DNA of 64,000 bases from Ferrovibrio sp. MS7 (GTDB lineage: Bacteria > Pseudomonadota > Alphaproteobacteria > Ferrovibrionales > Ferrovibrionaceae). Below, piece by piece: positions 8,484 to 26,771 of this stretch. Numbering within the stretch: the first letter of the stretch is position 1; every line of letters starts with the position of its first letter. The stretch lies in the NCBI RefSeq assembly GCF_038404985.1, contig NZ_JBBKBA010000001.1:462001-526000 (forward strand), in the 5' to 3' direction. The translations under genes and the position numbers were made by a program. The notes beneath the pieces were generated by a model, which was not told the DNA's origin, searched no databases, and saw only the letters and a list, made by a program, of their open reading frames with translations.

Positions 8484-8510
8484 CGTGGTTCCCTCCCGGT
8501 ATTTTTATGA

Positions 8511-8531
8511 ATTGTAGTATAGCATTACAAT
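8511..8531. promoter_or_regulatory. Inverted repeat overlapping a likely -10 upstream of the ligase gene
   Basis: ATTGTA (8511-8516) and TACAAT (8526-8531) form a perfect 6-bp inverted repeat with a 9-base spacer, 28 bases upstream of the ligase start. On the minus strand the spacer contains TATACT (8521 to 8516), a good -10 element for the ligase gene. An operator lying over a -10 box is a common repressor layout. I see no convincing -35. Confidence 0.45.
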
Positions 8532-8559
8532 ATTGGTAAAGGGAAAAGCGGCGTCTGCT

Positions 8560-8645
8560 GTCATGGCCCGCTTCAGGCGGGCCATCCACGAGTGGATATT
8601 TGCTGAAAACAAACGCGTGGATGCCCTGCCTACGCAGGGCATGAC
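8560..8645. repeat. Palindromic intergenic repeat (GTCATG...CATGAC type)
   Basis: The element opens with GTCATG and closes with CATGAC. It holds two hairpins (ATGGCCCG/CGGGCCAT and ATGCCCTGC/GCAGGGCAT) and an outer pairing of ATCCACG with CGTGGAT. The whole thing can therefore fold as one branched palindrome. A diverged copy is at 45458-45528. It lies between the ligase promoter and the end of the upstream oxidoreductase gene. Confidence 0.75.
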
Positions 8646-8658
8646 GGTTTTTAAGGGG

Positions 8659-9660
8659 TCAGGCGTTGACGTCGATAACCGTGCGGCCGCGGATCTTGCC
8701 GGCGAGAATCTGCGGCGCCAGCTCGAAAATGCTGGATAGCGGCCTGATCTCGGTCATGGCATCCAGCTTGTCCAGCGGCAGGCCCTTGGCGAGCTGCCAC
8801 CAGGCGCGGCGGCGGCGATGGGCCGGCGCCATCACGCTGTCGATGCCGAGCAGGCTGACATTGCGCAGGATGAACGGAAAGACGCTGGACGGCACATCGT
8901 TGCCGCCGGCCATGCCGCAAGCGGCGACCCAGCCGCCATACTGAGTCTGGCTGATGGCGGTGGCGAGCGTCTGGCCGCCGACGCTGTCGATCACGGCGGC
9001 CCAGCGTTCCTTGGCCATCGGCGGGCCCTTGGCGGCGAGTTCGGCGCGGTCGATGAAATCGCTGGCACCGAGCGAGCGCAGATAATCATGGGTATCCGGC
9101 CGGCCGGTGGCGGCCACCACCTTGAAGCCGCGCGAAGCCAGCAGCGCGATGGCCACCGAACCGACGCCGCCGGCCGCGCCCGTCACCAGCACCGGCAAAG
9201 CCTCGGGCCGCGTATCCTTCACCAAGCCAGCATCTTCCAGCGCCATGACGCAGAGCATCGCGGTATAGCCCGCCGTGCCCACCGCCATAGCTTGCGACAG
9301 CGAGAAATTGTCCGGCACCTGCACCAGCCACTCGGATTTCAGCCGCTGGAAACGCGTATAGCCGCCAGACTGGGTTTCCGAGAGGCCATAGCCGTTGACC
9401 AGCACGCGGTCGCCCGGCTTCCAGTCCGGGCTTTGCGATTCCACCACCGTGCCGGCGAGATCGATGCCGGCCACCAGCGGCAGCTTGCGCGCGATGCGGC
9501 CACCGGTCAGCGCCAGGCCATCCTTGTAGTTCACCGTCGAATAGGCCACCTCCACCAGCACGTCATGCTGGGGCAGATCGGCGAGCGTCAATTGCTTGAA
9601 GCCCGCCTTCGGCTTGCCATCGACTTCCTCTATCAGGACGGCACGGAAGCTTTCCGGCAT
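8659..9660 (-). CDS. MDR-family quinone oxidoreductase, acryloyl-CoA reductase (AcuI/YhdH)-like
   Basis: A 333-residue medium-chain dehydrogenase/reductase of the YhdH/AcuI type. The N-terminal NYKDGLALTG motif, PLVAGIDLAGTV, and the nucleotide-binding loop TGAAGGVGSVA (near residue 155) followed by ATGRPD are all diagnostic. Family members reduce acryloyl-CoA or related enoyl-CoA with NADPH and lack the catalytic zinc. The ATG at 9660 (MPESFRAVLIEE) is preferred over a 29-residue upstream extension that would run into the thiolase. It follows the thiolase by seven bases, so the two form an operon that may process CoA esters. Confidence 0.85.
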   Translation of the reverse strand: MPESFRAVLIEEVDGKPKAGFKQLTLADLPQHDVLVEVAYSTVNYKDGLALTGGRIARKLPLVAGIDLAGTVVESQSPDWKPGDRVLVNGYGLSETQSGGYTRFQRLKSEWLVQVPDNFSLSQAMAVGTAGYTAMLCVMALEDAGLVKDTRPEALPVLVTGAAGGVGSVAIALLASRGFKVVAATGRPDTHDYLRSLGASDFIDRAELAAKGPPMAKERWAAVIDSVGGQTLATAISQTQYGGWVAACGMAGGNDVPSSVFPFILRNVSLLGIDSVMAPAHRRRRAWWQLAKGLPLDKLDAMTEIRPLSSIFELAPQILAGKIRGRTVIDVNA

Positions 9661-9667
9661 GGGTACC

Positions 9668-10834
9668 TCAGCGGATCGGTTCGAGGATCGAGACGTAATT
9701 GGCGACGGCGACGCCGCCCATGTTGAATACGCCGCCGATCTTGGCATCCTTTACCTGCAGCGCGCCAGCGGTACCGGAAAGCTGCATCGCCGCCATCACA
9801 TGCATCGACACGCCGGTGGCGCCGATCGGATGGCCCTTGGCCTTGAGGCCGCCCGAAGGGTTGATCGGCAGCTTGCCGTCCTTCTGGGTCCAGCCTTCCA
9901 TGATCGCCTTGGCGCCCTGGCCCGGGGCGGTGAGGCCCATGGCTTCGTATTCGATCAGCTCGGCGATGGTGAAGCAGTCATGGCTCTCGGCGAAGGAAAG
10001 ATCCCACACATTGAGGCCGGCTTCGGCCAGCGCATCGGCCCAGGCCTTGGCCGGACCCTCGAAGGCGATCACGTCGCGCTTCGACATGGGCAGGAAATCC
10101 TGCACATGCTTGGCGGCGCGGAAGGCAATGGCCTTCTGCATGCCCAGCGCGGTCTGCACATCGGTGAGTATCAGGGCGGCGGCACCATCGGACACCATCG
10201 AGCAGTCGGTGCGCTTCAGGCCGCCGACGACATAGGGGTTCTTGTCGGAAACATTGCGGCAGAAGTCATAGCCGAAATCGCGCTGCATATGCGCCAGCGG
10301 ATTGACCGAGCCGTTCTTGTGGTTTTTCGCCGCGATCATCGCGGTGGCATCCGACTGGTCGCCGTATTTCTGGAAATACTTGCTCTGGATGCTGTCGAAC
10401 ACAGCAGCGAAACCGCCCTGGCCGAAGCTCTCTTCCTTGCGGTAGCTGGCCTTGAGCAGGATGTTGCCGACGACATCATTCGGCGCCGAGGTCATCTTCT
10501 CCACGCCGACGCAGAGCACGAAGCGCGCCTTGCGCGCGGCAATCGCCTGCAGGCCCTGGAACACCGCGGCGGTGCCGGTGGCGCAGGCATTCTCAAGCCT
10601 TGTGGCCGGCTTGAAGCGCAGGCCGGGATCGGCCTGCAGCACCAGGGAGGCCGGGAAATCCTGGTCCACCAGGCCGCCGTTGAAGGTACCGAGATAGATC
10701 GCATCGACATCCTTCGGCTCGATGCCGGCATCCTTGATCGCCTGGGTCGCGACCTCGACGATGAGGTCTTCCTGGGTCTTGTCATCCAGCTTGCCGAACT
10801 TGGTATGGCTCCAGCCGACGATGCAGGCGGTCAT
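9668..10834 (-). CDS. Thiolase family protein (acetyl-CoA acetyltransferase, SCP-x type)
   Basis: A 388-residue thiolase. The nucleophilic Cys sits in ENACATGTAAV (near residue 88), the first catalytic His-containing region is SHDCFTIAELIEYEAMG (near 292), and the C-terminal loop is GGLKAKGHPIGATG (near 340). The layout is that of SCP-x/lipid-transfer-type thiolases used in side-chain beta-oxidation or retro-Claisen cleavage. GGAG lies nine bases before the ATG at 10834. Such thiolases often have a DUF35 (Zn-ribbon/OB) partner gene next door; none is present here. It is the first gene of an operon with the AcuI-like gene. Confidence 0.87.
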   Translation of the reverse strand: MTACIVGWSHTKFGKLDDKTQEDLIVEVATQAIKDAGIEPKDVDAIYLGTFNGGLVDQDFPASLVLQADPGLRFKPATRLENACATGTAAVFQGLQAIAARKARFVLCVGVEKMTSAPNDVVGNILLKASYRKEESFGQGGFAAVFDSIQSKYFQKYGDQSDATAMIAAKNHKNGSVNPLAHMQRDFGYDFCRNVSDKNPYVVGGLKRTDCSMVSDGAAALILTDVQTALGMQKAIAFRAAKHVQDFLPMSKRDVIAFEGPAKAWADALAEAGLNVWDLSFAESHDCFTIAELIEYEAMGLTAPGQGAKAIMEGWTQKDGKLPINPSGGLKAKGHPIGATGVSMHVMAAMQLSGTAGALQVKDAKIGGVFNMGGVAVANYVSILEPIR

Positions 10835-12754: not shown

Positions 12755-13717
12755 CTAAAGCCGGCCGCCTTCATGGGCGAGGGCGCGGAATTTGCGCGGT
12801 GACAGACCGAACCGCTGGTGAAACAGCCGGCTGAAATGCGACGAGCTGTTGAAGCCCCAGTCGAAGGCGATATCGGTGATGGTGCGGTGGCGCAGGCCGG
12901 CATCGCCCAGCGCACCGCGCACATGCTCCAGCCGGCGCTGCCAGATCAGTTCGCTGAGCGTGGTCGGCTCATTCTCGAACAGCTTGTGCAGATAGCGTTT
13001 GGAATAGCCGAAATCCGCCGCGATGGCCTCGATGGACAAACCGGGATCGCGCAGGTTTTCCGCCACGAATTGCAGCACCCGCTGCTTCAGCCGGCTGCCC
13101 TCCTCGGCATCCCCCTCCAGCACATGCGCCATGCGGGCGACGCCATCGGCCAGCCGCTCGCCGTAATCCGCGCCCGGCGCCTTCGTCCCCTGGCGCAGGC
13201 CGGCATAGGCTTGCACCAGCAGGTCATAGACCATGCGACCGGCTGGGCTGGAACGATCGAAACGACGCACCGCGACACGCTCGACCTCGAGGCCGAGCCG
13301 GGTAAGTTCATCGCGCGGCAGCAGGATCGCCGCCTGCAGGATGCGGTCTGAATTCGATACCACATAGGTCTGCGTGGTGTCGTAGATGCCCCATTCGCCG
13401 GGCGTGATCACCACCTGGCGGCCGCCCTGCTCGAACCGCGCCGCGCCCTCGATCTGCGCCACGATCTTGACGTAGCCGCGATCATCGCGACGGATCAGGC
13501 GCGGTGTGCGCACCACGCGGTGACGGCTGGCGGCGATACCGCAAATCTTGAGATTGCGGTGCTCGCCGAGATCAAGCCGACCATCGAATTGCGGATCGCC
13601 GAACGTATCCGCCTCCAGCCAGCCGATATGCTCGCGCACGAAGCCGCCCCATAGCTCCAGGCGGTCGGCAATGCCGGTGCCGGCTTCGAAGGCGATGCTA
13701 TGGGCGCGCAGGGCCAT
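12755..13717 (-). CDS. AraC family transcriptional regulator
   Basis: A 320-residue regulator. The N-terminal ~190 residues form an AraC-binding-like (cupin-type) sensor domain (CGIAASRHRVVRT... GEWGIYDTTQTY), as in FeaR-type activators of aromatic amine or acid catabolism. The C-terminal ~110 residues carry two helix-turn-helices: LSIEAIAADFGYSKRYLHKLF and ITDIAFDWGFNSSSHFSRLF, then FGLSPRKFR. It is transcribed divergently from the Liv-type ABC operon across 267 bases containing two inverted repeats. It is thus a likely local activator of that operon. Confidence 0.88.
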   Translation of the reverse strand: MALRAHSIAFEAGTGIADRLELWGGFVREHIGWLEADTFGDPQFDGRLDLGEHRNLKICGIAASRHRVVRTPRLIRRDDRGYVKIVAQIEGAARFEQGGRQVVITPGEWGIYDTTQTYVVSNSDRILQAAILLPRDELTRLGLEVERVAVRRFDRSSPAGRMVYDLLVQAYAGLRQGTKAPGADYGERLADGVARMAHVLEGDAEEGSRLKQRVLQFVAENLRDPGLSIEAIAADFGYSKRYLHKLFENEPTTLSELIWQRRLEHVRGALGDAGLRHRTITDIAFDWGFNSSSHFSRLFHQRFGLSPRKFRALAHEGGRL

Positions 13718-13865: not shown

Positions 13866-13888
13866 TGAACAAGCGTAACGCTTGTTCA
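13866..13888. promoter_or_regulatory. Perfect 10-bp inverted repeat upstream of the ABC operon
   Basis: TGAACAAGCG (13866-13875) and CGCTTGTTCA (13879-13888) form a perfect inverted repeat around TAA. It lies 96 bases upstream of the ABC binding-protein ATG in the araC/ABC divergent region. It is not followed by a T-run, so it is more likely an operator than a terminator. It differs in sequence from the repeat at 13785-13800, suggesting a second regulator. Confidence 0.5.
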
Positions 13889-13984: not shown

Positions 13985-15190
13985 ATGCGATCCATGTTGA
14001 GGGGTGTGGCCGCGCTGGCATTGAGCGTGGCCCTGGGCCTCGCCGCACAGGCGGCTTTGGCACAGGACAAGATCAAGGTCGGCTGGGCGATTTCCAAAAC
14101 CGGCCCCAATGCCGGCGGCGCCAACATCACCCAGATTCCGAATTACCTGCTCTGGGTGAAGGAAGTGAACGACAAGGGCGGCCTGCTGGTAGGCGGCAAG
14201 CGCATTCCGCTGGAGGTCATCGAATACGACGACCGCTCGAATTCGGAAGAAGCGGTGCGCGCGGTCGAGCGCCTGATCACCCAGGACAAGGTCGACCTGC
14301 TGTTCCCGCCCTGGGGCACCGGCCTGAACCTGGCGGTCGGCCCGGTCTTCAACAAATACGGCTATCCGCAGCTTGCCTTCTCCGCCGTGACCGACCGCGC
14401 GCCGGAACTGGTGAAGCGTTGGCCAAACAGCTTCTGGCTGCTCGGCACCAGCAAGCAGTATGTCGATGCCCTGGTCGAGTTGCTGACCAAGATGCGCGGC
14501 GAAGGCAAGATCAACGCCAACGTGGCGATGCTCTCGATTGCCGATGGTTTCGGCATCGACCTGTCGAAGGCGGCGCGCGAGGGCTTCGAGAAGGCCGGCT
14601 TCAAGCTGATCTACGACAAGAGCTATCCCATCGGCACCCAGGACATGGCGCCGCTGGTCGGCGAGGCGCAGCGTTCCGGCGCCGATACCTTCGTCGCCTT
14701 CTCCTATCCGCCGGATACCGTGGCGCTGAGCGACCAGTCGAAGATCGCCAATTACGCGCCCAAGGTGATGTTCCTCGGCGTCGGTGTCGGCTTCCCGCTC
14801 TATCCGCAGAAATACGGCACCAATACCGAAGGCATCCTGTCGCTCGGTGGCTGGTCGGCGGACAATGCCGCCACGGCGGAATACCGCAAGAAGCATGTGG
14901 CGATGCATGGCCGCGACCCGGATTACTGGGGCAGCCAGGTCGGCTATTCCTCGCTACAGATGCTGGAACAGTCTATCGAGCGCGTTGGCAAGATCGACCG
15001 CGCCGCGATCATCAAGGAACTGCAGACCGGCACGTTCGATACCGTGCTGGGCAAGATGAAGCTGGTGGATAACATGCCGAAGGATGCCTACTGGTTCATC
15101 GGCCAGTGGCAGAACGGCTTCTTCACTGGCGTCGCGCCGCAGCGGCCGGGCGTTGCTGCCGTGAAGCTGCCGAAGGCGCCCTGGCAGTAA
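13985..15190 (+). CDS. Branched-chain-amino-acid-type ABC transporter, periplasmic substrate-binding protein
   Basis: A 401-residue periplasmic binding protein of the LivK/Peripla_BP_6 family. It has a signal peptide MRSMLRGVAALALSVALGLA ending at AQAALAQ. The mature start KIKVGWAISKTGPNAGG, the EVIEYDDRSNSEEAVRAVERL segment and the LLFPPWGTG loop are standard. GGAGG lies eight bases before the ATG at 13985. Relatives of this subgroup are often linked to aromatic-acid uptake as well as amino acids. The downstream ALDH, SDR and cupin genes make an aromatic ligand plausible, but the sequence does not prove it. Confidence 0.88.
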   Translation: MRSMLRGVAALALSVALGLAAQAALAQDKIKVGWAISKTGPNAGGANITQIPNYLLWVKEVNDKGGLLVGGKRIPLEVIEYDDRSNSEEAVRAVERLITQDKVDLLFPPWGTGLNLAVGPVFNKYGYPQLAFSAVTDRAPELVKRWPNSFWLLGTSKQYVDALVELLTKMRGEGKINANVAMLSIADGFGIDLSKAAREGFEKAGFKLIYDKSYPIGTQDMAPLVGEAQRSGADTFVAFSYPPDTVALSDQSKIANYAPKVMFLGVGVGFPLYPQKYGTNTEGILSLGGWSADNAATAEYRKKHVAMHGRDPDYWGSQVGYSSLQMLEQSIERVGKIDRAAIIKELQTGTFDTVLGKMKLVDNMPKDAYWFIGQWQNGFFTGVAPQRPGVAAVKLPKAPWQ

Positions 15191-15195
15191 CCCCC

Positions 15196-15240
15196 AATCC
15201 CCGGGGCGGCGCCATGGCGTGGCCCCGGGGATTTTCTTTC
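15196..15240 (+). terminator. Intra-operon hairpin after the binding-protein gene
   Basis: AATCCCCGGGGC (15196-15207) pairs perfectly with GCCCCGGGGATT (15222-15233) over a 14-base loop, followed by TTCTTTC. It starts five bases after the binding-protein stop. It probably acts as a partial terminator or 3' stabiliser that keeps binding-protein mRNA in excess over the permease mRNA. Confidence 0.65.
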
Positions 15241-15257
15241 AGTAGGTAGCCTTATCC

Positions 15258-16130
15258 ATGCTTTTCGATGCGCTGATCACCGGCGTGACGCTGGGCGGCA
15301 TGTATGCGCTGGTCGCACTCGGGCTGACGCTGCAATACGGCGTCGCGCGCATCATGAATCTTTCCTACGGCGAAACCCTGGTGGCGGCTTCCTTCGCCGC
15401 CATGGCGCTCTATACCGGCGCCGCCGTCAATCCACTGCTCGGCTTGGCTGTCGTTGTACCCGCCGCCGCCGGGATAAGCTGGCTGATCTATCGCTTCCTG
15501 CTCACCCCGCTGGTGCGGCGCGCCAAGAGCCGCGACGCGCTGGAAGTGGATAGCATCCTAGCCACCTTCGGCCTGCTATTCGTGATCCAGGGCGTGATGC
15601 TGGCGATCTTCGGCGGCGCCTATTTCTCCTATGCCTTCCTCGCCGTGCCGGTGCAGGTCTTCGGCACCGTAATCGCCGCCAACCGCCTGCTGGCACTCGG
15701 CTTCGCCCTGGTGATCGGCCTCGGCCTGTGGCTTGGCCTCACCCGCACCCGCACCGGCACCGCCTTGCGCGCCGTCGCCGTCGATCCCAACGCGGCACAG
15801 CTTGTCGCCATCGACGTGCGCGCCATGGCGGCGGCGGCCTTCGCACTCGGCGGCGGCCTGGTGGCGTCCGGCGGCGTGCTGACCTCGATGTTCCTCACCT
15901 TCAACGCCAATATCGGCGTGGTCTTCACCATGAAGGCGCTGATCGTGGTGATCATGGGCGGGGTAGGCAACCTGCTTGGCTGCCTGGTCGCCGGCCTGAT
16001 CCTCGGCCTCACCGAAACCCTGGTCGCCACCCTGATCGATCCCGGCCTGACGCTGGCCGCCACCTACACGCTGTTCCTCGCCATCCTGCTGCTCAGGCCG
16101 CAGGGGCTGTTCGGCGGAGCGCGGCGATGA
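15258..16130 (+). CDS. LivH-type ABC transporter permease
   Basis: A 290-residue inner-membrane permease of the LivH family. The N-terminus LFDALITGVTLGGMYALVALGLTLQYGVARIMNLSYGE is split by helices but carries the characteristic NLSYGE cytoplasmic turn. The C-terminal region has FTMKALIVVIMGGVGNLLG, the EAA-like contact with the ATPase. About eight hydrophobic segments are visible. It overlaps the next permease gene by four bases (ATGA), indicating translational coupling within the operon. Confidence 0.9.
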   Translation: MLFDALITGVTLGGMYALVALGLTLQYGVARIMNLSYGETLVAASFAAMALYTGAAVNPLLGLAVVVPAAAGISWLIYRFLLTPLVRRAKSRDALEVDSILATFGLLFVIQGVMLAIFGGAYFSYAFLAVPVQVFGTVIAANRLLALGFALVIGLGLWLGLTRTRTGTALRAVAVDPNAAQLVAIDVRAMAAAAFALGGGLVASGGVLTSMFLTFNANIGVVFTMKALIVVIMGGVGNLLGCLVAGLILGLTETLVATLIDPGLTLAATYTLFLAILLLRPQGLFGGARR

Positions 16131-17053
16131 CCATGCGTCTCGCGCTTGGCGGCCTCGCCGCGCTCATTGCCATCGCCGGCCTCGCCCTGCTGCCGCAATA
16201 TTTGAGCGGCTACGGCCTGTCACTCGCCATCGGCATCTTGAACTACACCGTGCTGGCCACCGCCTGGGCGCTGTTCTCCGGCCCGACGCGCTATGTCTCG
16301 CTCGCCACTGTCGCCTTCTTCGGCATCGGCGCCTATACCGTGGCAGTGCTGGGCGAGGTGCTGGCCTGGCCGCTGGTGCTGCTGATCGCGCTTGGCATCG
16401 GTGTGGCCGTGGCCCTGCTGGTCGGGCTTTCGACCTTGCGGCTTTCCGGCGTCTATTTCGTCATCTTCACCTTCGGCCTCGCCGAACTTATCCGCCAGCT
16501 CGTCACCTGGTTCGAGGTCAACAAGACGCGCACGCTTGGCCGCTATGTCTTTGTCGATATCAGCCAGACCCAGATCTACTGGCAGCTCTTGGTACTTGCA
16601 GTGCTGGTCTTCCTCGCCGGCTTCCTGATCCAGCGCTCGCGCCTCGGCCTCGCCCTGCGGGTGATCGGCGACGACGAGATGGTGGCGCGCCATGTCGGCA
16701 TCGACACCACGCGCGCCAAGGTGCTGCTGTTCGCCTTCTCCGCCAGTTTCATGACGCTGGCCGGCGCGGTGATGGCGCCGCGCTGGACCTATATCGACCC
16801 GGCCATCGCCTTCAATCCCGTGCTGTCCTTCCAGGTGCTGATCATGGCCCTGCTTGGCGGCGTGCACCGGCTCTATGGTCCGCTGCTTGGCGTGGTGCCG
16901 CTCACGCTGCTGTTCGAATACCTGCTGGCGCGGTTCCCGAACCATTTCTCCATCCTGATCGGGCTGGCCTTCATGGTCATCGTCTATGCCATCCCGCAGG
17001 GCGTGGTCGGGCTGATCGAAAAGCTGCGGGTGAAGCGGGAGGCGAAACAATGA
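16127..17053 (+). CDS. LivM-type ABC transporter permease
   Basis: A 308-residue second permease of the same transporter. It has N-terminal hydrophobic helices (LGGLAALIAIAGLALLPQYL), the LivM-type SLATVAFFGIGAYTVAVL segment, the LRLSGVYFVIFTFGLAELIRQL run and a FQVLIMALLGGVHRLYGPLLG coupling region. I start it at the ATG at 16127, which overlaps the stop of the LivH gene; the longer open frame upstream is an out-of-frame shadow of that gene. It overlaps the LivG gene by four bases. Confidence 0.9.
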   Translation: MTMRLALGGLAALIAIAGLALLPQYLSGYGLSLAIGILNYTVLATAWALFSGPTRYVSLATVAFFGIGAYTVAVLGEVLAWPLVLLIALGIGVAVALLVGLSTLRLSGVYFVIFTFGLAELIRQLVTWFEVNKTRTLGRYVFVDISQTQIYWQLLVLAVLVFLAGFLIQRSRLGLALRVIGDDEMVARHVGIDTTRAKVLLFAFSASFMTLAGAVMAPRWTYIDPAIAFNPVLSFQVLIMALLGGVHRLYGPLLGVVPLTLLFEYLLARFPNHFSILIGLAFMVIVYAIPQGVVGLIEKLRVKREAKQ

Positions 17054-17775
17054 GCCTGCTGCAAGTCTCCGGCCTGACGCGGCGCTTCGGCGGCCTGGTG
17101 GCTGTCGATGGCGTCGAGTTCAACGTCGCTGAAGGCGAGATCGTCGGCCTGCTGGGGCCGAACGGTTCGGGCAAGACCACGGTGCTGAATCTGCTCTCCG
17201 GAGCGCTCAGCCCCGATGGCGGCTCGATCCGCTTCGGCGCGCACGCCATCCACGGCCTGCCGGCGCATCGCATCGCCCGGCTTGGGCTGGCCCGTACCTT
17301 CCAGCTTGTGCGTCCGCTCGGCTCGATGGATTGCCGCGACAATGTGATTGCCGGCCTGGCCTTCGGCGCCGAGCGCCGCTGGGGCCGTGCGGCCAGCCGC
17401 GAAGCCGATGACCTACTGGCCCGTGTCGGCCTGGATGGGCGCGGCGGCGCGCTGCCCGGCGAACTCACCTATATCGACCAGAAGCGGCTGGAACTGGCCC
17501 GCGCCCTGGCGCTGCGGCCGCGCCTGCTGCTGCTGGATGAATGGCTGGCCGGCCTCAATCCCACCGAATTGCTCGAAGGCATCAAACTGGTACAGAGCCT
17601 GCGCCAGCAAGGCATCGCCATCCTGCTGGTGGAGCATGTGATGGATGCGATCCGCTCGCTCTGCGACCGCTGCCTGGTGATGAGCGCCGGCAAGCGCATT
17701 GCCATCGGCCTGCCCGGCGAGGTGCTGAGCGACCCCGAGGTCGTGCGTGCCTATCTCGGTGACGACCATGCTTGA
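17050..17775 (+). CDS. LivG-type ABC transporter ATP-binding protein
   Basis: A 241-residue ATPase with Walker A GPNGSGKTTV near residue 36, a Q-loop in ARTFQLVRPLG, a LivG-type signature (LPGELTYIDQKRLELARAL, in place of classic LSGGQ) and Walker B LLLLDEWLAGLNP near 160. The residue after the catalytic Glu is Trp instead of the usual Pro, an oddity that may be a subgroup trait. The switch His is in LLVEHVMD. It begins inside the end of the LivM gene (ATGA overlap). Confidence 0.9.
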   Translation: MSLLQVSGLTRRFGGLVAVDGVEFNVAEGEIVGLLGPNGSGKTTVLNLLSGALSPDGGSIRFGAHAIHGLPAHRIARLGLARTFQLVRPLGSMDCRDNVIAGLAFGAERRWGRAASREADDLLARVGLDGRGGALPGELTYIDQKRLELARALALRPRLLLLDEWLAGLNPTELLEGIKLVQSLRQQGIAILLVEHVMDAIRSLCDRCLVMSAGKRIAIGLPGEVLSDPEVVRAYLGDDHA

Positions 17776-17783
17776 GGCCAATC

Positions 17784-18494
17784 ATGCTTGAAGTGAGCGG
17801 CCTGTCCATTGCCTATGGCCGCCACCAGGCGGTGCGCGACGTGGCACTCTCGGTGGCCCGCGCCGAGATCGTGGTGATCCTGGGCGCCAATGGCGGCGGC
17901 AAGACCTCTTTGCTGAAAGCCATTGCCGGGCTTTTGCCTGCCTCGGAGGGCGCCAAGCTGACGCTCGACGGCACTGACCTGACCAAACTGCCGGCACATA
18001 GAATAGTCGAAGCCGGCCTGGCGCTGGTGCCGGAGGGGCGCGGCATCTTCGGCGACCTGAGCGTGCGCGAGAACCTGCTGCTCGGCGCCTATCCGCGCCG
18101 CGCCCGGGGCAGCGAGACCGCCAATCTCGACCGCATCCTGAGCCTGTTCCCACGCTTGGCCGAACGCATGAGCCAAGCCGCCCGCACCATGAGCGGCGGC
18201 GAACAGCAGATGGTCGCCATCGGCCGCGCGCTGATGTCGGCGCCCGATATCCTGCTGCTGGACGAGCCCTCGCTCGGCCTCTCGCCGCTGATCTGTGGTG
18301 AATTGTTCAGTGCCTTGCAGCACATCCGCGCAACCGGCATCGGCGTGCTGCTGGTGGAGCAGAATGCGCGCCGCAGCCTGGCCATCGCCGACCGCGGCTA
18401 CCTGATCGAGCAGGGCCGCATCGTCGGCAGCGGTAGTGCCGCTGCTTTGCGCGACGATCCCGCCGTGCAGCGCGCCTATCTTGGCAAGCAATAG
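17784..18494 (+). CDS. LivF-type ABC transporter ATP-binding protein
   Basis: A 236-residue ATPase, the second of the pair. It shows Walker A GANGGGKTSLL, the LivF-type LVPEGRGIFGDLSVRENLLLGA segment, signature MSGGEQQMVAIGRALM and Walker B ILLLDEPSLGLSP, with the switch His position replaced in LLVEQNARRSLAIADR as usual for LivF. I use the ATG at 17784, with GAGG about six bases upstream. A TTG at 17772 in the same frame overlaps the LivG stop and is less likely. Confidence 0.9.
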   Translation: MLEVSGLSIAYGRHQAVRDVALSVARAEIVVILGANGGGKTSLLKAIAGLLPASEGAKLTLDGTDLTKLPAHRIVEAGLALVPEGRGIFGDLSVRENLLLGAYPRRARGSETANLDRILSLFPRLAERMSQAARTMSGGEQQMVAIGRALMSAPDILLLDEPSLGLSPLICGELFSALQHIRATGIGVLLVEQNARRSLAIADRGYLIEQGRIVGSGSAAALRDDPAVQRAYLGKQ

Positions 18495-18518
18495 ATTTTC
18501 GTGGAAGGAGACAGAGAG

Positions 18519-19970
18519 ATGTTCGAGACCCAGTTGCTGATCGGCGGCAAGGATGTGGCGGCCAGTGGCAGCAAGACTTTCGAGCGCCGCAATCCGTTGA
18601 GCGGCGACGTGGCAAGCCGCGCCGCCGCCGCTTCGGTGGCCGATGCCAATGCCGCCGCCGATGCCGCCGCTGCCGCCTATCCGGCCTGGTCCGCGCTCGG
18701 CCCCAATGCCCGCCGGGCCCTGCTGCTGAAAGCCGCCGACAACCTGGCCGCCCACGCACCGGATTTCATCGCCCGCATGCAGGCCGAAATCGGCGCCACC
18801 GCTGCCTGGGCCGGCTTCAATGTGCATCTGGCATCCGGCATGCTGCGCGAGGCGGCAGCGATGACGACGCAGATCGGCGGCGAGGTGATCCCGTCCGACA
18901 AGCCGGGCTGCCTCGCCATGGCGACACGTGAATCGGTTGGCGCGGTGCTCGGCATCGCGCCGTGGAATGCGCCGGTGATCCTCGGCACCCGCGCCGTGGC
19001 GATGCCGCTGGCCTGCGGCAATACCGTGGTGCTGAAGGCGTCCGAGACCTGTCCGGCGACCCATCGCCTGATCGCCGAGGCGATCCAGCAGGCCGGGTTG
19101 CCGGACGGCGTGATCAACGTGGTGAGCAATGCGCCGGCCGATGCCGCCGAAGTGGTGGCGGCGCTGATCGCGCATAAGGCGGTGCGGCGGATCAATTTCA
19201 CCGGCTCGACCAAGATCGGCCGCGTAGTGGCGGAACTGGCCGCACGGCAATTGAAGCCGGTGCTGCTGGAACTCGGCGGCAAGGCGCCTTTGGTGGTGCT
19301 GGACGATGCCGACCTGGATGAAGCGGTGAAGGCCGCCGCCTTCGGCGCCTTCATGAACCAGGGCCAGATCTGCATGTCGACCGAGCGGATCGTGGTCGAT
19401 AACGCGGTGGGCGACGCCTTCGTGGCGAAATTCGCCGCCAAGGCCAAGTCGCTGACCAGCGGCGATCCACGCCAGGGCAATGTGGCGCTGGGTGCACTGG
19501 TGAATGTGGAAGCCGTCGATCGCGTGCTGGCGCTGGTGGACGAGGCCGTGAGCCAAGGCGCCAAATTGGTGGCCGGCGGCAGCCGCGACGGCGCGGTGAT
19601 GAGCGCCACGGTGCTGGACCATGTGACGCCGGACATGCGCATCTATCACGAGGAAAGCTTCGGACCTGTAGCCTGCGTGGTGCGGGCGGATGGCGAGGCG
19701 GCGGCGGTGCATGCCGCCAACGACACCGAATACGGCCTCTCGGCCGCCGTTTTCAGCCGCAACATTCCGCGTGCGCTGACTGTGGCCAAGCGTATCGACA
19801 GCGGCATCTGCCATATCAATGGCCCGACCGTGCATGACGAAGCACAGATGCCGTTTGGCGGCGTGAAGGCATCCGGCTATGGCCGCTTCGGCGGCAAGGC
19901 CGGCGTCGAGCAATTCACCGAGCTGCGCTGGATCACGTTGGAAACCCAGCCCGGCCATTTCCCAATCTGA
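18519..19970 (+). CDS. Aldehyde dehydrogenase, vanillin/salicylaldehyde dehydrogenase-like
   Basis: A 483-residue NAD(P)-dependent aldehyde dehydrogenase. The general base Glu is in LLELGGKAPLVVLDDADLDE (near residue 252), the nucleophile Cys in FMNQGQICMSTERIVVD (near 285), and the cofactor-binding segment INFTGSTKIGRVV is near 228. The N-terminal LLIGGKDVAASGSKTFERRN and the C-terminal INGPTVHDEAQMPFGGVKASGYGRFG match aromatic-aldehyde dehydrogenases (Vdh, DoxF), so an aromatic aldehyde is the likely substrate. AAGGAG lies upstream of the ATG at 18519. It follows the ABC genes by 24 bases and is part of that operon. Confidence 0.87.
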   Translation: MFETQLLIGGKDVAASGSKTFERRNPLSGDVASRAAAASVADANAAADAAAAAYPAWSALGPNARRALLLKAADNLAAHAPDFIARMQAEIGATAAWAGFNVHLASGMLREAAAMTTQIGGEVIPSDKPGCLAMATRESVGAVLGIAPWNAPVILGTRAVAMPLACGNTVVLKASETCPATHRLIAEAIQQAGLPDGVINVVSNAPADAAEVVAALIAHKAVRRINFTGSTKIGRVVAELAARQLKPVLLELGGKAPLVVLDDADLDEAVKAAAFGAFMNQGQICMSTERIVVDNAVGDAFVAKFAAKAKSLTSGDPRQGNVALGALVNVEAVDRVLALVDEAVSQGAKLVAGGSRDGAVMSATVLDHVTPDMRIYHEESFGPVACVVRADGEAAAVHAANDTEYGLSAAVFSRNIPRALTVAKRIDSGICHINGPTVHDEAQMPFGGVKASGYGRFGGKAGVEQFTELRWITLETQPGHFPI

Positions 19971-20737
19971 TGGCCATGCTGCTGGAAGGCAAAGTCTGCG
20001 TCATCACTGGCGCCGCCGGCAGCATCGGGCTGGCGGCGGCAAGACGCCTGCTGCGGGAAGGCGCCCGCGTGCTGCTGGTCGACCGAGAAGAGGCTGCCTT
20101 GATGGCGGCGGAAGCACAACTCGGCGCAACCTCGAGCCATGCCGTGTCGGTGGCCGCCGATGTCGCCACCGCGGAGGACACGCGGCGCTATCTCGAAGCG
20201 GCGCAGCGCCTCTGGGGCGGCATCGACGTATTGTTCCTCAACGCCGGGATCAGCGGCGCCATCAGCCCGGTGACGGAATACCCTGAGGAAACCTGGGACC
20301 GCGTCATCGCCGTGAACCTGCGCGCACCCTTCCTCGCCTGCAAATACGGCCTGCCGCTGCTGCGCGATGGCGGCAGCATCGTGATGACCGGCAGCGTCGT
20401 CGGCGTCACCAGCGATCCCGGCATTGCCGCCTATGCCGCCTCGAAACACGGCCTGATCGGCCTGATGCGCACGGTGGCGAAGGAAGCGGCGCGGCGCGAC
20501 ATCCGCGTCAATGTGCTGGCGCCGGGTCCGATCGACAACGGCTTCCAACGCCAGATCGAAGGCCATCTAAGCAATGTCATCGGCACCGAGGCCGGCGCCT
20601 TCCTGGATGGCCTAATCCCGCTCGGCCGCCACGGCCTAGCCGATGAAATCGCCGAAGCGGTGCTGTTCCTCGCCTCATCCGCCAGCAGCTTCACCACCGG
20701 CAGCGTGCTGATGGCCGATGGCGGCATGCATATCTGA
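19970..20737 (+). CDS. Short-chain dehydrogenase/reductase
   Basis: A 255-residue classical SDR. It shows the cofactor loop TGAAGSIGLAAA (residues 13-24), the NAGISG motif near 88, Ser in TGSVVG near 141 and the catalytic YAASK near 154, then the PG motif in LAPGPID. The final ADGGMHI is typical. The ATG overlaps the last base of the ALDH stop (TGATG), so translation is coupled. It probably oxidises an alcohol to a ketone or aldehyde in the pathway served by its neighbours; the substrate is not deducible. Confidence 0.9.
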   Translation: MAMLLEGKVCVITGAAGSIGLAAARRLLREGARVLLVDREEAALMAAEAQLGATSSHAVSVAADVATAEDTRRYLEAAQRLWGGIDVLFLNAGISGAISPVTEYPEETWDRVIAVNLRAPFLACKYGLPLLRDGGSIVMTGSVVGVTSDPGIAAYAASKHGLIGLMRTVAKEAARRDIRVNVLAPGPIDNGFQRQIEGHLSNVIGTEAGAFLDGLIPLGRHGLADEIAEAVLFLASSASSFTTGSVLMADGGMHI

Positions 20738-20763
20738 CCCGCAACCCATAGACGGAGCGCCCC

Positions 20764-21297
20764 ATGCCCGAAGCCGCCACCACCGAATTCTGGCGTCACC
20801 TCACGCCGATCAACCCGGTGTTCAAGCCCGACGCGCTGCCCGAAGCCTATGTGCAGAACGCGCCGACCGACGACGAGAAACTCTATGTGCCGTTCACCGA
20901 CACGGTGTCGTCGCGGCCGCTGTGGATCTCGCCAGCGCAGAACAAGTGGTGCGACATCCTGATGGCCAAGGCCGCCGGGCTGGTGAACCGGCATTACCAT
21001 CCACATGAAGTCTTCGCCTACACGATCTCGGGCAAATGGGGCTATCTCGAACATGACTGGACCGCTACGGCCGGCGATTTCGTCTACGAGACGCCGGGCG
21101 AGGGCCACACGCTGGTCGCCTATGAGCATGAACAGCCGATGAAGGTGTTCTTCATCGTGACGGGGCCGCTGATCTGGCTCGACGAGCAGGGCAATTCCGC
21201 CGGCCATTTCGACGTGCATGACTATATCGCCATGTGCCGCGAGCATTACGACAAGATCGGCCTCGGCGCCGACTACATCACGAAGCTGTTTAGGTAA
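20764..21297 (+). CDS. 2,4'-dihydroxyacetophenone dioxygenase-like cupin
   Basis: A 177-residue single-domain cupin. The first cupin motif holds HYHPHEVF with His77 and His79, and the second holds GEGHTLVAYE with His115. This gives the three-His iron site known from 2,4'-dihydroxyacetophenone dioxygenase (DAD), which splits the side chain of an aromatic alpha-hydroxyketone to give a benzoate and formate. The WGYLEHDW and TGPLIWLDEQGN segments also fit that family. It is the last gene of the ABC-ALDH-SDR operon, 26 bases after the SDR. The substrate is an inference; other ChrR-type cupins share the fold. Confidence 0.78.
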   Translation: MPEAATTEFWRHLTPINPVFKPDALPEAYVQNAPTDDEKLYVPFTDTVSSRPLWISPAQNKWCDILMAKAAGLVNRHYHPHEVFAYTISGKWGYLEHDWTATAGDFVYETPGEGHTLVAYEHEQPMKVFFIVTGPLIWLDEQGNSAGHFDVHDYIAMCREHYDKIGLGADYITKLFR

Positions 21298-21439: not shown

Positions 21440-21892
21440 CTACCCCGCACAGCCCAGGCGGCGGATCATTTCCGGCGGAATAGCCATGCCCTTGATCTTG
21501 CCCGGCTGCGCCGGATCGGGCTGTGCCAGCACGCGCTTCTCGCGGCCTTCCACCAGCAAAGTACCATCGGCGCGCTGGATACGATGGCCGACCTGGAAAG
21601 ACGAGCGGCCCCATTCGATGATACGGCTATGCACCACGATATGGTCCTGCACCGCCGCCGGCGCAAAGAACTTGGCATCCACCGAGACGATGGGAAAACC
21701 AATCGAGCCGATGCGGCGCAGCTCTTTCAGCGTGAAGCCGGCTTCCGCCAGCAGCCGCCAGGTACCGGCATCGAACCAGGCAAAGTAATTCGGATAGAAC
21801 ACGATATCCGCCGGATCGCAATCGCCCCATTGCACCTGCAACGGATGCACCGAGACCAAGGCCTCAGCAGCAACAACATCACTCGGCGGCAT
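21440..21892 (-). CDS. 4-hydroxybenzoyl-CoA-type thioesterase
   Basis: A 150-residue hot-dog-fold thioesterase. The segment VQWGDCDPADIVFYPNYFAW closely follows the 4-hydroxybenzoyl-CoA thioesterase motif, and Asp26 corresponds to the catalytic Asp of that enzyme. It should release a free aromatic acid from its CoA ester in the cytoplasm. The ATG at 21892 has GGAGG eight bases upstream inside the preceding oxidoreductase gene and overlaps it by 14 bases, so both are in one operon. A longer frame upstream is a shadow of that gene. Confidence 0.85.
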   Translation of the reverse strand: MPPSDVVAAEALVSVHPLQVQWGDCDPADIVFYPNYFAWFDAGTWRLLAEAGFTLKELRRIGSIGFPIVSVDAKFFAPAAVQDHIVVHSRIIEWGRSSFQVGHRIQRADGTLLVEGREKRVLAQPDPAQPGKIKGMAIPPEMIRRLGCAG

Positions 21893-23381
21893 GGCGCGCC
21901 TCCTGGGCCGCAGCGAAAGCGGCAAGCGTGCGGCTGAGCGCCTCGCCTTCCGGATCGCGCAAGGCGGCGACGCGCGTCTGCAGCACAGCGTCTGCGGCCT
22001 GGGCAACAGGCAGCTTGCCGTCCAGCGCAGGCAATATCAGATGCGCACGGATGCGCTGATAATTTTCCTCGCCACGCTTGTAGGTATCGCCATAGCCCTT
22101 GATCAGCCGCGCGCATTCGGCGATCTCGATGGCCAGCGCCAGGTCGAGCGAAGCCGCGCGCCGGATCAGGCCGAGCCAATCCTCGATCTGCGCCTGCTCC
22201 TGGGCATAGCGGTGGCTACGGCGGCGCCAGGGCTTCAAGGCCGCCAGCAGGCGGAAACGCAGATAGCCGCCGAGCCGGTTGCTCGGCAGGGTCATCGCCC
22301 AATGCCAGCGCCAGCCGCGCGCCTTGGCCAAGCGCAGCACCGGCTGCGCCAGGGAGGACGGCAGCAGGCCGGCCAGTTCCTCGATGCCGGGCTTGAGAAA
22401 ATCCGCCACTTCATAAGGCTGCCCGGCCTGGATACGGGTTTCGCGCTCAATCGCCTGGAACCGCTCCGGCTTCAACTTCAACTGCGCGACACGGATCACA
22501 TCCTCGACGCTCATGCGCAGGGCCAGATGCCGCGCCACCTCCGCCGCCAGCTTGCCTTCGGCATCAAGGCGAGCAACCGCCTCCAGGCGATCCAGGTACA
22601 AGCTGGCATAGGCGGCATCCTGGTAATCCAGCAGCCGCTTCACACCCGATGCGGCATGGGTATGTGCTGCCATGGGCAAAGCATCGACGCGCTGCGCCAG
22701 ATCGAGCAACGGGATCGGCGATGGTGCGATTTCGGCACGCGCCGCCGCCGCCGCGATTTCGCCGCGCGCATGAGCGAGGCCAAAGCGGAAACCGGAAAGG
22801 TTGCTTTCCACGGCTTTACCTTCGGCGCGGATGCCGGCCTCGAACAGATCGGCGGCCAACGGCAGCGCCTCGCTGCCAGCCAGTGCGCCGAGCAGCACGG
22901 CATTGAGGATCGAGCCGGATTCTTTCGCCGCCGCATCCATATCGAACAGCACGGCACGGCGGGCGCATTCCTTGGCGGCGCGGAACAGCCGGCCGCTGTC
23001 GAAACGGCCATCGCCCATGCCGCTTTTCTCCGCCACGGCGAAGATGCGGTGCGTGGAAGCGATCAGCAGGGTGCGGTCGGGCGTGACATAGCCGTTCTGC
23101 ATGGCGCGGCCGGCCTCGACGAATTCGGACGCGATCATCACATCGACCTGGCCCAAACCCGGATTGAGACACATCACCGGGCGCTGCTCTGTCACCGCCG
23201 GCCAGATCTCGATGTAATAGGTGGTGGCGCCGGTGCGCTGCGCCACGCCGGGAATCGAGGTCGCTTGCACCGGGAAGCCGGCGCGGCGCGCGGCCCCGGT
23301 GATCCAGTCGGTGAGTACGCCGCCGCCTTCACCGCCAAGCGCTGCAACAAGGAGCGTGATCGGGCGCTTGACGCTGCTCAT
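21879..23381 (-). CDS. Indolepyruvate:ferredoxin oxidoreductase beta-subunit-type protein with C-terminal extension
   Basis: A 500-residue protein. The N-terminal ~190 residues are the gamma-type pyruvate:ferredoxin oxidoreductase domain (LVAALGGEGGGVLTDWITGAAR, then QATSIPGVAQRTGATTYYIE). The remaining ~300 residues are a helical extension (seen for example in LALAIEIAECARLIKGYGDTY) found in the long IorB-like form of these enzymes. It joins with the alpha-subunit to convert aryl-pyruvates to aryl-acyl-CoA using ferredoxin. I start it at the ATG at 23381, which overlaps the alpha-subunit stop by four bases. Confidence 0.85.
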   Translation of the reverse strand: MSSVKRPITLLVAALGGEGGGVLTDWITGAARRAGFPVQATSIPGVAQRTGATTYYIEIWPAVTEQRPVMCLNPGLGQVDVMIASEFVEAGRAMQNGYVTPDRTLLIASTHRIFAVAEKSGMGDGRFDSGRLFRAAKECARRAVLFDMDAAAKESGSILNAVLLGALAGSEALPLAADLFEAGIRAEGKAVESNLSGFRFGLAHARGEIAAAAARAEIAPSPIPLLDLAQRVDALPMAAHTHAASGVKRLLDYQDAAYASLYLDRLEAVARLDAEGKLAAEVARHLALRMSVEDVIRVAQLKLKPERFQAIERETRIQAGQPYEVADFLKPGIEELAGLLPSSLAQPVLRLAKARGWRWHWAMTLPSNRLGGYLRFRLLAALKPWRRRSHRYAQEQAQIEDWLGLIRRAASLDLALAIEIAECARLIKGYGDTYKRGEENYQRIRAHLILPALDGKLPVAQAADAVLQTRVAALRDPEGEALSRTLAAFAAAQEARHAAE

Positions 23382-25507
23382 GCCCCCACGCTCCTGAGCC
23401 AGCCGATCATGGCTTGATGCAGGCGGTGATTGAGGCGGTCCCACAGCGAGGGGTTATGCACGATCTCGGTCTTGTAGAAGGACGGGCAGAGCACGGCGGC
23501 ATGGGCCACCTCGCCGCAATGGCCGCAGCCGACGCAGCCCTGGTTGACATGCGCCACCGGATCGCTGCGCAGCGGATCCGGATTGGGCTTGATGGTGAGC
23601 GACGGGCAGCCCGAGAGCCGGATGCAGGAATGGTCGCCGGTGCAGACCGCGTCATCGATTCCGAAACGGGTGCGCAGCACGCGCTCCCCCGCCGCCAGCG
23701 CCTTGGCCTCTTCGCCACGCAGGCGCCGCTGCCGGGCCAACTGGCATTCGCCATCGGCGATGATCACCTTGAGGCCCTTTTGCGCCGTGGAGAGTGCTTC
23801 CTTCAGGGCCGAAGTCATGCCGCCCAGGCCATAGGAGCGCAGCCGCTTCACCCATTGCACGCCCAGCGCCTTCAGGGTGGTTTCGATATCGGCACCGTTG
23901 ATGCCATCCTCATGGCGGTTCTGCTTCGAGGACGGCAGATATTGCACGCCGGTCGCCGAGGTATAGCCGTTCTGCAACACCACCAGTACGCCGTCGCCGC
24001 GATTGAACAGGGCCGAGGACACGCCGGTTATCAAGCCATTATGCCAGAAGCCGCCATCGCCCATGATGGCGATGGGCCGACGCTGCGACAGCGGCCCGAC
24101 GCCTGCCGCCGAGGCCAGGCTCATGCCATAGCCGAGGATCGAATGCCCCACCGAGAACGGCGCGAAAGTGGCGAGCGCATGGCAGCCGATATCGGCGGCC
24201 ACATGCACCGGGCCGGTCTCGCGCTCCACCAGCTTGATCGCGGTGAAGACCGGACGCTCCGGGCAGCCGGTACAGAAGGTCGGCGGCCGCAGCGGCAGAT
24301 CCGGGCCGATCAGCCCTTGCGCCTTGGCGCGCTGCGCCTGCGCTGCATCGAAGGCGGCGGCAGGTGCTGCAAGATCGAGATCGGGCCGCGCCTTGGGCAG
24401 CCAGGCGAGCAGGCCGCGCGTGAGGACTTCAATCGTGTATTCGCCGGCCATCGGCAGCATATCCTTGCCGGCCAGGCGGAGATTGCGGTCGGCACGGCGG
24501 AGGATCGTGCCGATAGCCTGTTCGAGATATTCCGGGCCGCCCTCCTCCACCACCAGCAGATGGTTCTTGCCGGCACAGAAATCGAGAATCTGCTGCGGCG
24601 CCAGCGGATGCGTCACGTTCAGCACCAGCATCGGCACGCGGCATTGCTCGAAAGCATCGGCAAGGCCCAGTGTCTGCAGCGAGCGGCTCAGTGCATTATA
24701 GATGCCGCCCTGCACAATGATGCCGATGTCATTGAGATCTCCGGGCATCACTTCGTTGAGGCCGTGTTCCAGGATGAAACGCTGCGCGGCGGGCAGCCGC
24801 TGCTCGAATTTCAGCTTTTCCTGCTTGAAGGTGGCGGGCGGATGCGCCAAGTGATCGTAGTTGAAGGCTGCCGGCCCCACCTTGGCGCGGCGCGATACGG
24901 TGGCGGCGCGGTTCTGCTTGGCTGCGAAACTTCCGGTGACATGGCAGGCGCGGATGCGCAATTCCAGCATCACCGGCGTGTTCGAGGCTTCCGACAGCTC
25001 GAAGCCTTTCTCGACACAGCGCACGATGGTTGACAACTCCGGGCGCGGATCAAGCAGCCACATCGAGGATTTCAGCGCGAAGGCATGGCTGCGCTCCTGG
25101 ATCACGCTGGCGCCTTCGCCGTAATCCTCGCCGATCACGATCATGGCGCCGCCGATCACGCCGGGCGAGGCCAGGTTGCTCAGGGCATCGGAGGCGACAT
25201 TGGTGCCGACGATGGATTTCCAGGTGACGGCGCCACGCGCCGGGTAGTTGATCGAGGCCCCGAGCAAGGCCGCCGCCGAGGCCTCATTGGTGCAGGTTTC
25301 GAGATGGATGCCGAGGTCGTCGAGGATATCCTGCGCCTGCACCAGCACGTCGATCAGATGCGACACCGGCGCGCCCTGGTAGCCGCCGACATAGGCGACG
25401 CCGGATTGCAGCAGCGCCTTGGTGACGGCAAGGATGCCCTCACCCTCGAACAGTTCTCCCTGCCCCAACCGTAAAGCCTGAATTTCCTTGCTGAAGGACC
25501 GTTCCAT
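23378..25507 (-). CDS. Indolepyruvate:ferredoxin oxidoreductase alpha-subunit-type protein (TPP, Fe-S)
   Basis: A 709-residue subunit. The N-terminal pyrimidine-binding region has GEGILAVTKALLQSGVAYVGGYQG, and the thiamine-diphosphate region has GDGGFWHNGLITGVSSALFNRGD near residue 490. The C-terminus carries a ferredoxin-like cluster motif, CVGCGHCGEVAHAAVLCP, with a second set of more widely spaced Cys just before it (CTGDHSCIRLSGCP). The enzyme oxidatively decarboxylates aryl-pyruvates such as indole- or phenylpyruvate to their acyl-CoA. GGAG precedes the ATG at 25507. It is divergent from the TRAP operon, with a perfect operator-like repeat between them. Confidence 0.88.
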   Translation of the reverse strand: MERSFSKEIQALRLGQGELFEGEGILAVTKALLQSGVAYVGGYQGAPVSHLIDVLVQAQDILDDLGIHLETCTNEASAAALLGASINYPARGAVTWKSIVGTNVASDALSNLASPGVIGGAMIVIGEDYGEGASVIQERSHAFALKSSMWLLDPRPELSTIVRCVEKGFELSEASNTPVMLELRIRACHVTGSFAAKQNRAATVSRRAKVGPAAFNYDHLAHPPATFKQEKLKFEQRLPAAQRFILEHGLNEVMPGDLNDIGIIVQGGIYNALSRSLQTLGLADAFEQCRVPMLVLNVTHPLAPQQILDFCAGKNHLLVVEEGGPEYLEQAIGTILRRADRNLRLAGKDMLPMAGEYTIEVLTRGLLAWLPKARPDLDLAAPAAAFDAAQAQRAKAQGLIGPDLPLRPPTFCTGCPERPVFTAIKLVERETGPVHVAADIGCHALATFAPFSVGHSILGYGMSLASAAGVGPLSQRRPIAIMGDGGFWHNGLITGVSSALFNRGDGVLVVLQNGYTSATGVQYLPSSKQNRHEDGINGADIETTLKALGVQWVKRLRSYGLGGMTSALKEALSTAQKGLKVIIADGECQLARQRRLRGEEAKALAAGERVLRTRFGIDDAVCTGDHSCIRLSGCPSLTIKPNPDPLRSDPVAHVNQGCVGCGHCGEVAHAAVLCPSFYKTEIVHNPSLWDRLNHRLHQAMIGWLRSVGA

Positions 25508-26692: not shown

Positions 26693-26718
26693 TCGCTGTT
26701 TCTGACTGTAGCTTAAAC

Positions 26719-26751
26719 CCGCCGGCCATGATGGCATATCGTGGCCGGCGG
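26719..26751 (+). other. Intra-operon hairpin after the TRAP binding-protein gene
   Basis: CCGCCGGCCA (26719-26728) pairs perfectly with TGGCCGGCGG (26742-26751) over 13 bases, between dctP and dctQ. There is no T-run. Like the hairpin at 15196, it probably stabilises the 3' end of the binding-protein message or lowers read-through into the membrane subunits. Confidence 0.55.
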
Positions 26752-26771
26752 TATCGTTCCAGCGGGGGCTC

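Follow-up and report, generated by a model that had tools for sequence, protein, structure and literature searches.

A stretch of 64,000 nucleotides from the alphaproteobacterium Ferrovibrio sp. MS7 (contig NZ_JBBKBA010000001.1, positions 462,001 to 526,000; hereafter the window) carries, at 13985-21297, a tight operon of eight plus-strand genes that unites an ATP-binding cassette (ABC) importer of the LIV type, an aldehyde dehydrogenase (ALDH), a short-chain dehydrogenase/reductase (SDR) and a cupin whose sequence favours its identification as 2,4'-dihydroxyacetophenone dioxygenase (DAD). We are moderately confident that the operon encodes a pathway that takes up small para-hydroxyphenyl C6-C2 compounds and cleaves their side chain. 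The predicted reaction of the cupin is most likely an Fe(II)-dependent one in which 2,4'-dihydroxyacetophenone is split into 4-hydroxybenzoate and formate. The enzyme itself is known and the types of its partners are ordinary, but the operon recurs and points to a testable class of substrate. No description of an operon of this make-up was found in the literature searched, chiefly outside subscription journals.

Among solved structures, the best phmmer match of the cupin is the DAD of Alcaligenes sp. 4HAP (EC 1.13.11.41; 177 amino acids; PDB 4p9g and 5bpx), with an E-value of 5.2e-103, and the first differently named cupin in the same search reaches only 1.8e-17. The alignment of the two proteins gives 80.3% identity over 173 residues. 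In the structure report on the Alcaligenes enzyme (PMC4219425), the iron is bound by His76, His78 and His114, and modelling places Trp61 and Asp63 at the phenol hydroxyl, with the ring surrounded by Phe43 and Phe129, the hydroxyketone next to Tyr93, and Glu108 on the O2 side. In that numbering the three ligands align with His77, His79 and His115 of the window cupin, and the site is kept in the window and in all of the 80 related loci described below. We checked 23 residues that the same report names as iron ligands, pocket residues or a conserved glutamate, Val82 included. The window cupin is identical to the solved DAD at all 23, and 19 of them, including Trp61 and Asp63, are invariant in the 81 rows formed by the 80 loci and the window; Val41, Leu135 and Phe148 are each changed in a single row, and the position of Met156 is occupied by Met in 36 rows, Leu in 44 and Gln in one. 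A paralogue in the same genome (locus L082) is 40% identical and lacks Phe43 and Asp63, and for this reason probably acts on another substrate.

The gap between 80% identity to DAD and 40% to the paralogue of its own genome favours membership of the DAD group. The preliminary description of this DNA had already called the cupin DAD-like, and the identity gap together with the retained pocket residues bears this out and speaks against a position outside the group; a cupin of another kind is rejected on the 80.3% identity and the 23 matching residues. The cupin tree alone is too weak to settle the matter: the characterised DAD falls among the 80 loci, with the window as its nearest row by path and Herbaspirillum locus L057 as its partner (fork support 84), but 40 of the 77 inner branches in this tree of a short protein are open, no starred set holds the characterised DAD and the sole outgroup row sits on a saturated branch. 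In locus L108 (9445-12190; G000:C1, about position 1,497,000) the window's genome has a second, diverged cupin, 40% identical and lacking Phe43 and Asp63, that stands beside an SDR gene and near a xanthine/uracil-type permease.

The preliminary description had placed import, SDR, ALDH and a three-histidine cupin in one operon, and the coordinates (Table 1), the gaps and the Pfam assignments confirm it. In gene order the gaps are 67, -7 (-4 counting from the ATG at 16127), -4, 8, 24, -1 and 26 bases, and the families are Peripla_BP_6, BPD_transp_2 (twice), ABC_tran (twice), Aldedh, adh_short and Cupin_7/Cupin_2. The importer set of LIV/HAAT type is complete and ordered, with a substrate-binding protein (SBP), two permeases and two ATPases. 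Translation of the SBP gene begins with the ATG at 13985, preceded by AAGGAGG, and the protein has a hydrophobic N-terminus that, judged by eye, resembles a signal peptide. The SDR has the classical motifs (TGAAGSIG at 13, NAG at 91, YAASK at 155), and the Asp that follows its second strand, which we take to mark a preference for NAD, suggests NAD as the cofactor.

Table 1. Coordinates in the window of the operon genes, the divergent regulator and the repeat between them
Feature	Coordinates	Strand	Basis
Divergent AraC-family regulator	12755..13717	-	AraC_binding_2 + HTH_18
Perfect inverted repeat between the AraC and SBP genes (candidate operator)	13866..13888		
Periplasmic SBP of LIV/HAAT-type ABC importer	13985..15190	+	Peripla_BP_6, E 4.3e-51
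ABC permease, LivH-type	15258..16130	+	BPD_transp_2
ABC permease, LivM-type	16127..17053	+	BPD_transp_2
ABC ATPase, LivG-type	17050..17775	+	ABC_tran + BCA_ABC_TP_C
ABC ATPase, LivF-type	17784..18494	+	ABC_tran
ALDH, salicylaldehyde/vanillin dehydrogenase-like	18519..19970	+	67% identity to PDB chain 6qhn, motifs
Classical SDR, probable side-chain alcohol dehydrogenase	19970..20737	+	adh_short_C2, E 5.3e-60
Cupin, predicted DAD ortholog	20764..21297	+	phmmer E 5.2e-103 to 4p9g

A pattern scan of 84,980 species genomes yielded 277 stretches in which a cupin relative is encoded. Those 80 that are most similar to the window cupin, each with at most 10 kb on either side, make up the set of loci compared here, a biased sample in which the cupins of L001/L002, L050/L052 and L066/L071 are identical. 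The gene caller missed DAD in L033, L061, L075, L077 and L078, which were covered by tblastn. Presence was scored at identity thresholds over half of the query (for example 45% for the SBP, 55% for LivH, 45% for the SDR and 55% for the ALDH); other thresholds gave the SBP in 47 loci, the SDR in 47, the ALDH in 32 and three or more ABC genes in 44. A window-type SBP or LivH accompanies DAD in 48 of the 80 loci, another LIV-type SBP in four and a major facilitator superfamily (MFS) transporter alone in 13, so that 65 have a transporter of one of these kinds. An alcohol dehydrogenase is present in 60, of the window's SDR type in 46 and solely as a zinc-dependent alcohol dehydrogenase (Zn-ADH) or another SDR in 14. 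The transporter, alcohol dehydrogenase and DAD that had been proposed to act together recur as a set in 59 of the 80 loci, and in 48 of the 60 that extend more than 6 kb on both sides. In 44 of the 59 both the ABC and the SDR are of the window's types; the other 15 have at least one part replaced, by MFS together with Zn-ADH or another SDR in loci of Pseudomonas, Marinobacterium and Comamonas, and by a different LIV set in L018, L062, L063 and L080.

The order of the genes varies: where the ABC genes share the strand of DAD, they lie upstream of it in 27 loci and downstream in five; where they are on the opposite strand, they lie downstream in 15 and upstream in one. These 48 loci belong to the Rhodospirillales, Hyphomicrobiales, Rhodobacterales, Acetobacterales, Sneathiellales and Burkholderiales, with 31 in the Hyphomicrobiales and five without an order name. 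On the drawn cupin tree the state of having ABC genes beside DAD requires 10 changes versus 27 in shuffles, of which well supported branches force one; four arrangements and six orders are the better sign of repeated association. An SBP ortholog within 10 kb of DAD was seen in 47 of 80 loci versus about 0.4 expected by chance, an estimate that ignores relatedness, counts 1.1 copies of the SBP in each genome and assumes a genome size of 4.5 Mb. A chance neighbourhood is rejected on this excess and on the recurrence of the set in 59 loci. One of these contigs, L013, is labelled Streptomyces sp. AcH 505 and has the gene order of Bradyrhizobium L018; it is probably an assembly contamination. In L053, L054, L058 and L059 (10586-13615) a formamidase-like gene stands between an importer gene and the SDR gene beside DAD; that of L059 is related to FmdA, at 72.9 bits versus a cut-off of 500. 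Locus L105 (5114-11249) has three tandem DAD-like cupins (64%, 36% and 34% identical to the window's) followed by SDR and Zn-ADH genes and preceded by MFS, an arrangement reminiscent of the DAD-like cluster of four genes in Novosphingobium MBES04.

The ALDH is 67% identical over 464 residues to PDB chain 6qhn, named salicylaldehyde dehydrogenase; its next-best solved relative is 9ihb, named vanillin dehydrogenase, and its catalytic motifs are in place (LELGGK at 251, GQICM at 283). By sequence it belongs to the salicylaldehyde/vanillin dehydrogenase subgroup (6qhn, 9ihb, NahF 4jz6), from whose members it differs in sharing an operon with DAD. The preliminary description had given this enzyme a place in the pathway as the one that clears aldehydes. 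Its gene and its aromatic relationship hold up, but a fixed step does not: the ALDH was seen in 32 of the 80 loci, relatives of it pair with related ABC genes in genomes where no close DAD is found, and its role in the pathway is probably accessory. In a draw of 289 genomes from the class, DAD was matched at an E-value of at most 1e-70 in four and the SBP at an E-value of at most 1e-90 in 14, and eight of the 11 genomes with a related SBP and no DAD at that threshold were inspected for hints of substrate. In L102, L104, L111 and L114 related ABC genes go together with an ALDH of 57-63% identity and an AraC7-type gene of 32-35% identity; in L102 (5099-12093) and L104 the ALDH is 63% and 60% identical and the ABC set is LIV-type. 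For L102 and L104 the gene caller returned nothing, and these two were covered by tblastn (L104) or by a listing of open reading frames. L103 has a gene for an amine-oxidase-like flavoprotein next after the ABC run. No clear hint of substrate came from L113 or from the two short loci L112 and L115. These pairs suggest that the importer-ALDH module is older, and the operon can be read as two joined modules, in which importer and ALDH would serve aldehydes and SDR and DAD would serve hydroxyketones.

A different partner marks 18 of the 80 loci, mostly of the Hyphomicrobiales: a thiamine diphosphate-dependent enzyme of family PRK08327 beside DAD. In L024 it directly precedes DAD (8255-9976) and scores 659.6 bits versus a cut-off of 456. 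The enzyme is distant to benzoylformate decarboxylase and benzaldehyde lyase. The ALDH is present in all 18 of these loci versus 14 of the other 62, counts that are uncorrected for relatedness. The window's genome has no member above the cut-off (best 202 bits, cut-off 456).

Clues to the product come from genes of ring breakdown. In the four Shinella loci L015, L019, L023 and L024, pcaC-pcaH-pcaG-pcaB run on the same strand into an ABC set, the PRK08327 enzyme and DAD; all four pca genes pass the NCBIfam cut-offs in L015, and they were identified by tblastn match only in the other three. At 190-6645 of L015, and likewise in the other three loci, the pca genes are accompanied by a further LIV-type ABC set. 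A pobA gene lies 4-5 kb from DAD in L007 and L106, whose cupins are 99% identical, and the L106 copy scores over the cut-off. The window's genome encodes PobA (656.8 bits, cut-off 538.7) and PcaH (350.3 bits, cut-off 296.4), and VanA_C has no match in this 99.9% complete genome, where other demethylase types, for example the tetrahydrofolate-type, were not sought. With PobA and PcaH present and VanA_C unmatched, 4-hydroxybenzoate fits as the product, and vanillate fits less well. None of the eight operon genes belongs to a hydroxylase family by Pfam, the part of the genome that was searched, so the side chain presumably arrives already oxygenated. When the genes of the 80 loci are clustered, the 13 largest clusters (c0-c12) comprise transporters, dehydrogenases, AraC-type regulators, the PRK08327 enzyme and DAD, and no hydroxylases.

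Gene content and order, the orthology and pocket of the DAD, the recurrence of the set and the presence of PobA and PcaH are read directly from the sequence; from them we infer the substrate, the direction of the SDR reaction, the role of the ALDH, the ligand of the importer and the regulation. The ABC importer would take up either the hydroxyketone directly or an aryl glycol, for example 1-(4-hydroxyphenyl)ethane-1,2-diol, whose benzylic alcohol the NAD-type SDR would oxidise to give the aryl alpha-hydroxyketone 2,4'-dihydroxyacetophenone. The cupin would cleave this ketone with O2, yielding 4-hydroxybenzoate and formate; PobA and Pca enzymes, whose genes lie outside the operon in the same genome, would complete the breakdown of the ring, and the accessory ALDH may act on an aromatic aldehyde from the same source. 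A C6-C2 glycol or hydroxyketone is preferred as the substrate because an oxygenated side chain is needed and, with the genes present, SDR and DAD suffice.

The preliminary description had proposed a lignin-type unit, C6-C2 or C6-C3. On a lignin route, arylglycerols or hydroxypropiophenones, guaiacyl units among them, would be oxidised by the SDR to alpha-ketones and cleaved by the cupin to vanillate or 4-hydroxybenzoate, with the ALDH clearing vanillin-type aldehydes. A close parallel is cluster G-II of Novosphingobium MBES04, in which a DAD-like gene heads a co-transcribed cluster under an aryl-ketone-responsive promoter. This promoter is most responsive to GHP, a guaiacyl C6-C3 phenylpropanone, and responds also to 2,4'-dihydroxyacetophenone, which speaks for the C6-C2 pathway, and not to vanillin; the cluster differs from the operon in comprising four genes, the other three described as hypothetical, and the main text of the report does not use the terms 'ABC transporter' or 'cupin' (PMC10866074). 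The vanillin dehydrogenase 9ihb as second-best solved relative of the ALDH agrees with a guaiacyl substrate, as does a VanA_C Rieske oxygenase gene in Herbaspirillum L057 (10551-11627), on the same strand and 16 bases after DAD. GHP is not an alpha-hydroxyketone, though, and the invariant Trp61 and Asp63 are modelled on the para-hydroxyl group. The guaiacyl part of the proposal is weakened by the lack of a VanA_C match in a genome that has PobA and PcaH instead, and kept alive by the VanA-like gene of L057; a C6-C3 substrate retains a lower weight than a C6-C2 one, and we regard the lignin route as unlikely.

The Rieske oxygenase of L057, a candidate 4-hydroxyacetophenone hydroxylase or vanillate demethylase, bears also on the branch from 4-ethylphenol and 4-hydroxyacetophenone known from Hopper's strains. 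There the SDR would convert 1-(4-hydroxyphenyl)ethanol to 4-hydroxyacetophenone, an unlinked hydroxylase would produce 2,4'-dihydroxyacetophenone and DAD would cleave it. PMC4219425 sets the Alcaligenes enzyme in 4-hydroxyacetophenone degradation and, in the sections consulted, describes no linked ABC importer, SDR or ALDH. The characterised DAD, moreover, pairs in the tree with L057, whose DAD precedes this oxygenase. No operon gene is a hydroxylase, and clusters c0-c12 have none; oxygenases lie near DAD in L057 and four Pseudomonas loci. The chances of this branch seem to us slim. An ordinary amino-acid or amine uptake operon, with a cupin that has drifted to another substrate, appears highly improbable. 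LIV-type importers often carry branched-chain amino acids, and the best NCBIfam match of the regulator is FeaR, under its cut-off, but active-site residues are kept where drift would show, pca and pob genes adjoin DAD in relatives, the ALDH is of aromatic type, and the SBP has a Val aligned with the Glu of the E. coli leucine-binding protein that presumably holds the ammonium group of the ligand.

Against the C6-C2 pathway stand the Rieske oxygenase of L057, the guaiacyl C6-C3 ketone as the strongest MBES04 inducer (PMC10866074) and the pair of HpaB-type monooxygenase and flavin reductase that Pseudomonas L044, L065, L072 and L073 carry some 2 to 9 kb upstream of DAD (family scan on the L044 copy only, 6128-8235). 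The C6-C2 pathway has no need of these oxygenases; they take slightly from its weight and add slightly to that of two rival explanations. The SBP weighs on the same side: its sequence profile ranks leucine-binding proteins first, it is not near any solved aromatic-binding protein, and, among the LIV-type folds matched by its predicted model (mean pLDDT 84.3), the Z scores of proteins that bind amino acids, urea or 4-hydroxybenzoate differ by a few units. It shares its fold with the aromatic-binding LIV-type proteins 4evq and 4f06 of Rhodopseudomonas (Z 32.3 and 30.5) but is just 18 and 20% identical to them, and amino-acid and urea binders score equally. The association, too, is incomplete. 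Neither sought type of partner occurs in 14 of the 80 loci, among them L025, L064, L067 and L074, with less than 2 kb on one side, and ten with at least 5 kb on each side (six of Chromohalobacter, L039, L040, L057 and L075). One genome of the class draw, G222, has a 62% identical DAD and no SBP match, and three genomes have an SBP of 53-56% identity and no DAD match. Within the window's own family DAD was matched at an E-value of at most 1e-40 in eight of 18 genomes.

Control of the operon may lie with the divergent AraC-family gene, outside the interval of the preliminary description, whose FeaR match scores 167.6 bits (cut-off 199). An AraC-type gene from one of three lineages is present in 51 of the 80 loci. 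The perfect inverted repeat in front of the operon occurs once in the whole genome (4.58 Mb) when up to three mismatches are allowed and did not occur in shuffles of the window; the corresponding intergenic stretches of L001, L002, L004, L007, L029 and L035 lack it. Scans for promoters and terminators performed no better than shuffles, with two promoter-like sites versus 1.2 and four terminator-like sites versus 4.8. Downstream, the minus-strand genes at 21440-25507 converge with the operon and encode a 4HBT thioesterase and a two-gene POR/TPP oxidoreductase with DUF6537, which we take to resemble indolepyruvate oxidoreductase; among the 80 loci both POR genes adjoin the operon in L001 and L002 only. 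A DctP-DctQ-DctM tripartite ATP-independent periplasmic (TRAP) transporter follows on the plus strand at 25661-28576, next to the POR genes.

The role of DAD in nature was left open by Enya et al., as cited in PMC4219425. Tentatively, and with rather less than even confidence, we suggest that its main natural role may be to complete a widespread and reshuffled pathway in which transporter, alcohol dehydrogenase and DAD act on aryl glycols and aryl hydroxyketones, and not to degrade 4-hydroxyacetophenone, and that in many Hyphomicrobiales the adjacent thiamine-dependent enzyme and the ALDH may serve another branch for the same substrate. Dihydroxyphenylglycol is discussed in a 2018 study of a lignin-degrading Comamonas, which states that there was then no information on its bacterial pathway (PMC6307125). 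If our interpretation is correct, the operon would provide a bacterial route for hydroxyphenylglycols, with importer, dehydrogenase and cleaving enzyme for such aryl units in one package. DAD is among the few dioxygenases that cut the side chain rather than the ring, and the recurring set, joined in some genera by pca genes, makes its natural substrate directly testable.

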